NCBI RefSeq assembly: GCF_038396675.1
Contig: NC_088927.1
Coordinates: 32,536,001 to 32,600,000 of the forward strand
DNA length: 64,000 nt
From: Hydra vulgaris
Taxonomy: Eukaryota > Cnidaria > Hydrozoa > Anthoathecata > Hydridae
Direction of reading: 5' to 3'
Each line of letters opens with the position of its first letter. Positions within the stretch are counted from its first letter, which is position 1. The position numbers and the translations under genes were made by a program. A model generated the notes under the pieces. That model did not search any database, was not told the origin of the DNA, and was given only the letters and a program-made list of their open reading frames with translations. Positions 8,113 through 10,416 of this stretch are shown one piece after another.

Positions 8113-10416
8113 ATGCTCTAAGTTGTGAAATGGCGTCAGCCAACAACATCAGTTAGTTACTTTCTTTTTTCAATAGCTCAGCAGTTATTTTTATTATATA
8201 TATATATATATATATATATATATATATATATATATATATATATATATATATATATATATATATATATATATATATATATATATATATATATATATATATA
8301 TATATATACAAATGACTTACTATATGCAAATTTTTATATTACTTTGTAAAAATAAAGTTAATTTAATTTGTTTAGATGAACTTGCTTTACAGAGGATCAG
8401 TCAGTTATATCCCTATTATATGAATTAATTTAGTATTTAGTCATTTACTATTAGTTTTCAAATACAGTTCTTTAATATGCCTATGTAGATTGTTGTTAGT
8501 TGTATTTTTGCATACCTAATTCTTACATTTTATTAAGTCACTTTTTTTTTTCTGTAGACAAATTAGAACAAACAATCAGTAAGTTTAGTTTAGATTGTTT
8601 TAGTTACTATATCATTTAAAAGTATTTGTATGCTGTGTTAGTATTCCTTGTTAGCTTTGAATAAACGTTTTGATTTAAAATTGGTATTTAGGTGAGTACG
8701 GCCAGCAGATACGTAAGTTTCATAGATTTCTATATTTTTCAACATATAACTAATTGATACATCATTACAAATATAAACTTCAAGTAAATGTTTTAAATTA
8801 AAATTGGTATTTAGGTGAATATGGCAAACAAATATGTAATTTTTGTAGGTTTCAATATTTTAAAGTGTATACTTTGTTAATACATCATTATATAGATATT
8901 ATAACGCGAAACAAGTGCATTTTAAAGTTGAAATATATTCCATTCACATTCCAACAATTTTAATTTATTTTCTTTATCTTTAGCAAACCTTACTTCGATA
9001 ATTGGTGAGAGAATTTATATATATATATATATATATATATATATATATATATATATATATATATATATATATATATATGTATATATATATATGTATATAT
9101 ATATATATATATATATATATATATATATATTAATGGAAGGAGACTTATATTATGCCATTTAATTCATATTTAGTGTCACTGTCGTCTATTCCTGCTGGTA
9201 AGGTTTATATATTCTTACTTTTCGATATGATTATAATTGCTAAATAATTGTGAGGTTATGTTGTGTATTGTTTTTTTATTTTTTAGTATCATCATCGTCC
9301 ATTACTGTTGGTAAGTTTTATATATTATTATTTTTCAGTATAGTTTTAATTATAAAATAATTGTAAGGTTGTTTTGTGTATTGTCTTTTTATTTTTTAGT
9401 ATTATCTTCATCCGTTACTGTTGGTAAGGTTTATATATATATATATATATATATATATATATATATATATATATATATATATATATATATATATATATAT
9501 ATATATATATATATATATATATATTTATATATATATATATATATATATATATATATATATATATATATATATATATATATATGTATGTATATATATATTG
9601 TTAATTACAAATAATTTTAAGTATGGTTTCAATTATTAAATAATTATACAGTTATGTTGTGTATTGCATTTTTTGTTTTTTAGTATCAACTTCATCATTT
9701 ATAATGGGTAAGGTTTTTATACTTTTATTTTCATATATGATTTTAATTTCTAATTTATTTTAAGGTTGTGCTATATTATTTAATTTTTTCATATAAAGTT
9801 TTTCATATAACATTTTTTGATCATATAAGTCTATGCTATAGTATTTTATATTTTTATTTTTTAGTGCCATCATCATCGAAACAAGTTGGTAAGGTATAAT
9901 CTAAACCTTTCAACATGATTGTTATTACAAAATAAATACAAGATTTTATTTTTTATTTTAGTGCCACTTGCATCTGTTCCATTTGGTAATGTCATATATT
10001 TTCAATAAGAATTTATAGATCTTAAATAAGAAATATTTTCCAGTATCGACAAATAGTTTACATATATAGTTGCAAGATAATGTAATGTATTTTTATTTTT
10101 TAGTTTTATCTTTTTCTGTTAATACTGGTAAGGTTTACATATTTTTACTTTTTAACAACCAAATAATTTTAAGACGTGGCTGTATTTTATGTTTATTTTT
10201 TAGTGCCATCGTCATCTGAACGAATTGGTAAGGTGTATAAAGTGAACTTGTAATTGGAAAATTATTACAAGAATTTGATTTTAGTTTATTATGCCAATTT
10301 CTTTATATTAGTGCAAATTTCATCTGTTCCAGTTGCTAATGACATATACTTTCTTTCTTTGAAAATTGATTTAAGTATTTATTATTATGCTTTTTTTTCT
10401 TTATCTGTTGCAACTT
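8113..10416 (+). CDS. Candidate micro-exon gene: array of 21/24/39-nt symmetrical exons
   Basis: Fifteen short segments are each preceded by a T-rich tract plus AG, and fourteen are followed by a GT donor, mostly GTAAGG/GTAAGT. They are 8113-8151 (39 nt), 8376-8399 (24), 8558-8578, 8692-8712, 8816-8836 and 8984-9004 (21 each), then nine of 24 nt: 9174-9197, 9287-9310, 9400-9423, 9684-9707, 9865-9888, 9962-9985, 10104-10127, 10204-10227, 10312-10335. Every length is a multiple of three. Every segment is open when read in phase 1 (two bases finish a codon, one base begins the next), and the joins make no stop. The 24-mers encode variants of one 8-residue unit ([40 protein letters not shown]). 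The 21-mers at 8692 and 8816 encode EYGQQI and EYGKQI. The exon at 10312 has CT for the donor GT, and decayed copies lie at 10044-10067 and 10393-10416. Terminal exons and function are unknown. Skipping or including any unit would keep frame. Confidence 0.6.
8196..8308. repeat. (AT)n microsatellite within the array
   Basis: About 110 bases of (AT)n in the putative intron between the 39-nt exon and the next 24-nt exon. Confidence 0.97.
9017..9130. repeat. (AT)n microsatellite within the array
   Basis: About 110 bases of (AT)n between the candidate exons at 8984-9004 and 9174-9197. Confidence 0.97.
9434..9598. repeat. (AT)n microsatellite within the array
   Basis: About 165 bases of (AT)n between candidate exons 9400-9423 and 9684-9707. 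It explains why that intron is longer than the roughly 75-160 bases of its neighbours. Confidence 0.97.

Follow-up and report, generated by a model that had tools for sequence, protein, structure and literature searches.

A phase-1 micro-exon array in Hydra vulgaris, probably a decayed copy of a dispersed, mobile-element-like repeat

Introduction

Micro-exon genes (MEGs) have a coding region that lies mostly in very small symmetrical exons, and alternative splicing can vary the protein that they encode (PMC4350168). This source describes MEGs as apparently restricted to platyhelminths and as all having a signal peptide (PMC4350168). Our literature search, which had most subscription journals outside its coverage, found nothing on such a micro-exon array in Hydra. 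Among mobile elements, Helitrons and Pack-MULEs carry gene fragments with introns, and some Penelope-like elements retain introns. Basic ORF1/Gag-like proteins with a coiled coil bind nucleic acid.

Here we analyse a stretch of 64,000 nucleotides, referred to as the window, from the 911-Mb, 15-contig genome of Hydra vulgaris (C8:32536001-32600000; 28% GC). A preliminary description had proposed an unrelated new gene of the schistosome MEG design in this DNA. The tiny symmetrical exons are indeed present, but they do not form a single new gene. The array is a broken member of a dispersed repeat, and we consider it probable that it is a decayed copy of a mobile-element-like Hydra vulgaris repeat carrying a phase-1 micro-exon gene.

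Results

Segments, splice signals and phase of the array

On the forward strand we located 15 micro-exon segments, one of 39 nt, four of 21 nt and ten of 24 nt. The 39-nt phase-1 exon (8113-8151) was called on splice signals and phase and may be part of a first coding exon at 8079-8151, since translation could start at the in-frame ATG 8079 or at ATG 8130 behind the acceptor at 8112. A 24-nt exon, (N)ELALQRI, follows at 8376-8399, based on splice signals and the alignment of copies. For the four 21-nt exons, (N)KLEQTI at 8558-8578, (S)EYGQQI at 8692-8712, (R)EYGKQI at 8815-8835 and (S)NLTSII at 8984-9004, the heptad pattern adds to these two lines of evidence. The remaining nine are the VxxSSVxV variants: (V)SLSSIPA at 9174-9197, (V)SSSSITV at 9287-9310, (V)LSSSVTV at 9400-9423, (V)STSSFIM at 9684-9707, (V)PSSSKQV at 9865-9888, (V)PLASVPF at 9962-9985, (V)LSFSVNT at 10104-10127, (V)PSSSERI at 10204-10227 and (V)QISSVPV, which starts at 10312. 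The number of 24-nt segments had been given as nine; that is the size of the VxxSSVxV set, and the exon at 8376 is the tenth.

An AG lies directly 5′ of all 15 segments and a GT directly 3′ of 14, as had been described. The acceptors had also been called pyrimidine-rich throughout, which does not hold for those of 8692 and 8815 (6 of 13 bases each). Each of the 15 exons has a length divisible by three and all share one phase, which agrees with the MEG property of a coding region made up largely of tiny symmetrical exons. The claim that they are open only in this phase fails exon by exon, as six are open in all three phases, but it is correct for the exons taken jointly: phase 1 is the sole phase open in all 15, and the other two are open in 11 and 9.

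Using criteria that were not trained on the array, we counted 10 multiple-of-three, phase-1-open candidates in 8000-10500, against a mean of 0.55 and a maximum of 3 in 300 dinucleotide shuffles. The margin shrank under a looser donor rule (9 candidates in the array versus a mean of 2.13 and a maximum of 7 in 300 random sequences). No second cluster of at least four candidates was found on either strand of 264 kb, 7500 bases of which are N.

Comparison of the units confirmed that introns between neighbouring units are similar to one another, and this similarity, introns included, supports growth of the array by unit duplication. The equal lengths of the 24-mers are therefore not independent of each other. 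Units 9865, 9962 and 10104 correspond to 10204, 10312 and 10393 in what appears to be a second-order duplication of three units. Two degenerate unit copies are present, at 10044-10067 and at 10393-10416.

Public proteins that contain array exons

Among the matches listed, protein searches (7986 candidates scored in the last of them) yielded two proteins, both from Hydra. The first, P0002, is the Hydra vulgaris '52 kDa repressor of the inhibitor of the protein kinase-like' protein of 625 aa. Its first 92 residues equal nine joined array exons, residue for residue and in the frame proposed beforehand, and they imply all eight junctions from 9197 to 10312. Our own mapping of the protein onto the window DNA, from which the exon limits are taken, placed these residues at 9152-9197, 9287-9310, 9400-9423, 9684-9707, 9865-9888, 9962-9985, 10104-10127, 10204-10227 and 10312-10374. 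P0002 thus begins at ATG 9152, reads through the acceptor of the 9174 exon, and leaves out both the degenerate copy at 10044 and everything upstream of 9152. It prolongs the last array exon (10312-10374), whose own donor at 10336 is lost, to a donor at 10375. A terminal read-through exon from 10312 to a TGA, with an AATAAA at 10621, would be possible, but we rejected it in view of this donor.

The second protein, P0001 (LOC136092362, 133 aa), has the same exon order as the window, with 88% identity over 41 residues. It maps exon by exon, in order, to another copy of the array, L035 on contig C15, from PSSSKQV to QISSVPV, and it has three exons beyond the window set, namely PPLPTQT, PSSSAST and a terminal exon that starts with PTYEDYV. 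The exons at 8113-9004 were found in neither P0001 nor P0002. In our opinion, exons this small are unlikely to be annotated without RNA support.

The encoded protein

Joined in order, the exons encode a 48-residue N-terminal part followed by the nine VxxSSVxV variants. The early exons follow the pattern IxxLxxxIxxYxxxIxxYxxxIxxLxxxIxxL, which amounts to five consecutive a/d heptads. For this segment, which we had picked ourselves, five consecutive heptads with I, L, V, M, F or Y at a and d did not arise in any of 200,000 residue shuffles, and 112 reached four; the coiled-coil call rests on this heptad pattern. Each 21-nt exon corresponds to one heptad, and the later exons are 8-residue S/V/P repeats. 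Skipping of a 21-nt exon would thus keep both the frame and the heptad register.

No hydrophobic start was seen at ATG 8079 or 8130, so there is no obvious signal peptide; the true 5′ end may lie elsewhere, and a crude, strict scan of 1-8113 gave no candidate for an upstream signal exon. A Pfam search returned nothing above the curated cut-off, which leaves a nucleic-acid role without Pfam support, and a PDB sequence search returned nothing below E 0.001. A structure model of P0001 had a mean pLDDT of 55.5 and was set aside.

We also considered that the array might be minisatellite-like, i.e. 110-180 bp units with no coding role that inherited their splice signals by duplication. The units are indeed duplicated, and the present copies show no third-position bias (see below). 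However, the upstream 39-, 24- and 21-nt exons are of other sequence and nevertheless share the phase and form heptads, all nine VxxSSVxV 24-mers are free of indels versus introns of 73 to 260 nt between them, and two public proteins equal joined exons. We therefore regard a minisatellite as highly improbable.

Dispersed copies and their decay

A genome search for sibling arrays, as had been suggested, found array DNA with its introns at dozens of places or more. The segment 9600-10640 occurs at at least 40 places, window included (best 40 of 239 candidates), on all 15 contigs, and the 39 non-window places match at 87-97% in the best piece. The heptad-exon DNA (8320-9012) was likewise present at at least 40 places including the window (best 40 of 184), the others at 92-98%, as was the left part, 7400-8190 (at least 40 places including the window, best 40 of 287 candidates). 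The many dispersed copies expected of a mobile element are thus present. Introns are retained in all six copies that we aligned (the window, L030, L031, L032, L035 and L036).

In the 15 pairs of these six copies, with microsatellite stretches excluded, exon divergence was 0.031-0.060 and intron divergence 0.023-0.064, and there was no consistent third-position excess. Because exons and introns diverge about equally, the copies look neutral and relic-like; selection would have shaped the exon structure before the copies spread. Individual copies have lost signals at different positions. L031 lost the acceptor of the 10204 exon, in L030 the donor of the 9174 exon is weakened, and the donor of the 9287 exon reads GC in all three other copies aligned there (L030, L031 and L035). 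The change from GT to CT at 10336, noted previously, is found in the window copy alone, the other five copies having GT, and the 10393 unit, previously called degenerate, lacks an acceptor in all six. Copies of the unit with lengths that are not multiples of three had been named as evidence against a gene. One such exon was found in one copy, L036, which has 25 nt at the 10104 position, as expected for decaying copies; L036 also has a 21-nt exon in place of a 24-mer.

The window copy spans 7657-11666 on the forward strand; its left end is its own break, and its right end is approximate, being taken from L030 and L031 only. Matches begin at 7657 in 35 of 36 left-hand pieces. A sharp element end at this position was rejected, as all 12 copies fetched from these 35 run on further left. 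At 7863-7875 the window has 13 bp where L031 has about 365 bp, which marks a deletion; all 39 non-window places have a piece that starts at query position 477, and 36 have a separate left-hand piece. At 10479 the window, L030 and L031 part from L032, L035 and L036. Beyond this point L032 continues into the exon PPLPTQT, and L035 into PPLPTQT, PSSSAST and the C-terminal exon, whereas a different 3′ segment, running from 10479 to about 11666, is common to the window, L030 and L031. No convincing C-terminal exon was found in the window. The window copy is therefore defective: it is broken on its left side, has suffered a deletion, has lost a donor and lacks the C-terminal exon.

The C-terminal module and a related family

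The fuller copy has two extra micro-exons and a C-terminal exon, which is larger than the micro-exons. This exon is RGG-rich in two of the three copies read (L034 and L036), while L035/P0001 is in another frame there. An AATAAA follows shortly after the stop codon in L035 and L036. When P0001 was searched against the genome, at least 150 matches were obtained (best 150 of 863 candidates), nearly all in the C-terminal part. At C8:37955465-37965474 the module occurs four times in tandem, at steps of 3283-3291 bp.

More distant matches of the C-terminal module, with about 51% identity, include one at C8:64409817 (L037). Its 2495-bp surroundings occur at at least 40 places (best 40 of 1127 candidates) on all 15 contigs, and at 25 of the 39 places other than L037 itself the match covers 2493 or more of the 2495 bases, with 90-95% identity. 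Nine in-frame micro-exon candidates precede the module in L037; these were found by eye and picked for being in frame. With neutral criteria there were six candidates, versus a mean of 1.89 and a maximum of 6 in 300 random sequences. In L052 and L053 we counted five candidates each, versus means of 1.36 and 1.53 and maxima of 6 and 7. The putative micro-exons of the L037 type are thus suggestive only. Two other leads were dropped: a 1787-aa frame at C8:64409817 proved to be a run of N behind a short frame, and a viral match, L038, was a short word in DNA that appears, from its frames, to be a bacterial or phage contig. Near an L037-type copy on C10 (L051) lies a frame without a Pfam match, which we take to resemble the start of SPT6.

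These data bear on whether the copies could, instead of a mobile element, be a host gene family that expanded through ordinary duplication and includes many pseudogenes. Such a family would fit the gene-like exon structure, the position of AATAAA in L035 and L036, the four-module tandem on C8 and the lack of an enzyme common to the copies read. It fits poorly with copies on all 15 contigs, with the same sequence across the window's break in 12 of 12 sampled copies, and with the near full-length, repeat-like matches of the L037 type on every contig. We consider a host gene family unlikely.

Search for element ends and an enzyme

In the copies compared, no convincing element ends or target-site duplication were found. 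The inverted-repeat score of the L031 ends (39) was above the 95% shuffle value (31) and below the shuffle maximum (45), and is partly due to a TA repeat. A search for 3′ ends shared with the LINE of the window, or between unit types, gave short matches only.

No enzyme recurs among the few copies read. L030 (positions 1-1000 of which are N), L031, L052, L053 and L054 have no frames of at least 120 aa, and next to L032, L033, L034, L035, L036 and L051 the frames vary between copies. L032 adjoins a zinc-finger frame, and L035 has a frame with an exonuclease match below the cut-off. In L036 a Tc3-type transposase frame (414-995) lies 700 bp before the array piece, in a stretch that resembles the right end of the window. 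As no enzyme common to these copies was found, outside machinery would be needed to move them.

An alternative is the capture of an intron-bearing gene fragment by an unrelated transposon, which then amplified it with the window-type unit as a passenger. This overlaps with our preferred reading and differs from it in the mode of movement. It would account for the window, L030 and L031, which lack the C-terminal exon and have their own common 3′ segment, and for the shared part of L031 lying between two TA-rich runs. However, the fuller gene type is multi-copy as well, and the diverged family, whose C-terminal module is related, is likewise dispersed, so the gene is not confined to a single context as it moves. 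A passenger origin is thus a serious, if somewhat unlikely, alternative.

The downstream hAT-type element and other features of the window

Beyond 10374, P0002 continues with exons that start at 13972 and 14362 and encode a hAT-type transposase, with DUF4371 in that second half. This raised the question of a real host-transposase fusion, in which array exons are spliced to the downstream transposase. In its favour are P0002 itself, which joins 10374 to 13972, and a locus on C4 where about 10 kb separate a heptad-exon copy from a hAT-type piece. The hAT-type piece spans at least 12938-17108 judged by L002, and 13324-16711 by L005 and L006, whose similarity to the window stops at 13324. It occurs at at least 70 places (best 70 of 8803 candidates), and among the matches listed (39 and 70) no hAT-type place was found within 50 kb of an array place other than the window. 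Going by these alignments, the hAT-type piece is a repeat separate from the array. In addition, the second intron of P0002 skips an in-frame stop, which in our opinion looks like a forced gene model. We consider a fusion very unlikely.

At C4:17851769-17862847 a heptad-exon copy, the C-terminal module and a hAT-type piece lie within about 11 kb, similar to the window. Given thousands of hAT-type candidates, this co-location may be chance.

Elsewhere in the window there is a second DUF4371 frame (27693-29465). LINE-like frames, the first with a reverse transcriptase domain (RVT_1), are found on the reverse strand at 22746-25863, and a TA run comes after them. Transposase domains of the TNP-like and DDE_1 types occur at 33148-33771, 3033-3551 and 49911-50129. 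Two open frames have no Pfam match: one of 361 aa that contains a 42-bp unit repeated about eight times in tandem (17424-17766), and one of 722 aa on the reverse strand (37151-39319).

Discussion

If the array is, as we think probable, a decayed copy of a dispersed, mobile-element-like repeat, its history might be outlined as follows; the function, mobilisation and exon-skipping variants of the unit are what we infer here. A founder gene would have produced a spliced protein with a coiled coil, built from one heptad per 21-nt exon. Duplicated exons would have lengthened its spacer of 8-residue S/V/P repeats. A basic C-terminal module of the RGG type, likely nucleic-acid binding by analogy with ORF1/Gag-like proteins, would have completed the protein. 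The unit would then have been copied by outside machinery, either as DNA or as unspliced RNA, and the copies would afterwards have decayed neutrally.

A bolder proposal, which we put forward tentatively and hold to be rather doubtful, is a new intron-rich mobile element of Hydra whose own protein would be encoded by micro-exons, each supplying one heptad or one 8-residue repeat. Exon duplication or skipping would then change oligomer and spacer length with the frame kept, and diverged subfamilies would have their own micro-exon sets before a shared C-terminal module.

If our preferred reading of a dispersed, mobile-element-like repeat is true, coding DNA in exons of 21-24 nt has been amplified genome-wide together with its introns. 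The repeat would offer many natural copies for studying how 21-nt exons are recognised and how exon arrays grow, and it would place a MEG-like design outside flatworms. It would also be a warning that gene models such as P0002 can fuse such repeats to unrelated transposases.

Compared with known systems, the DUF4371 gene P0002 shares nine array exons with the repeat and differs in its second half, which is a separate repeat. With Helitrons, Pack-MULEs and Penelope-like elements the Hydra repeat has in common that intron-containing coding DNA is found at many places, whereas the ends, enzymes and duplicated target sites of those elements were not found in it. We do not claim that the array is a MEG, as its host is a cnidarian and the protein searches gave no MEG homologue among the matches listed. 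It resembles the schistosome MEGs in its tiny symmetrical exons. In contrast to them, it is a cnidarian array present in dozens of copies or more, with no obvious signal peptide, and its predicted product combines a coiled coil with an RGG-type C-terminus.
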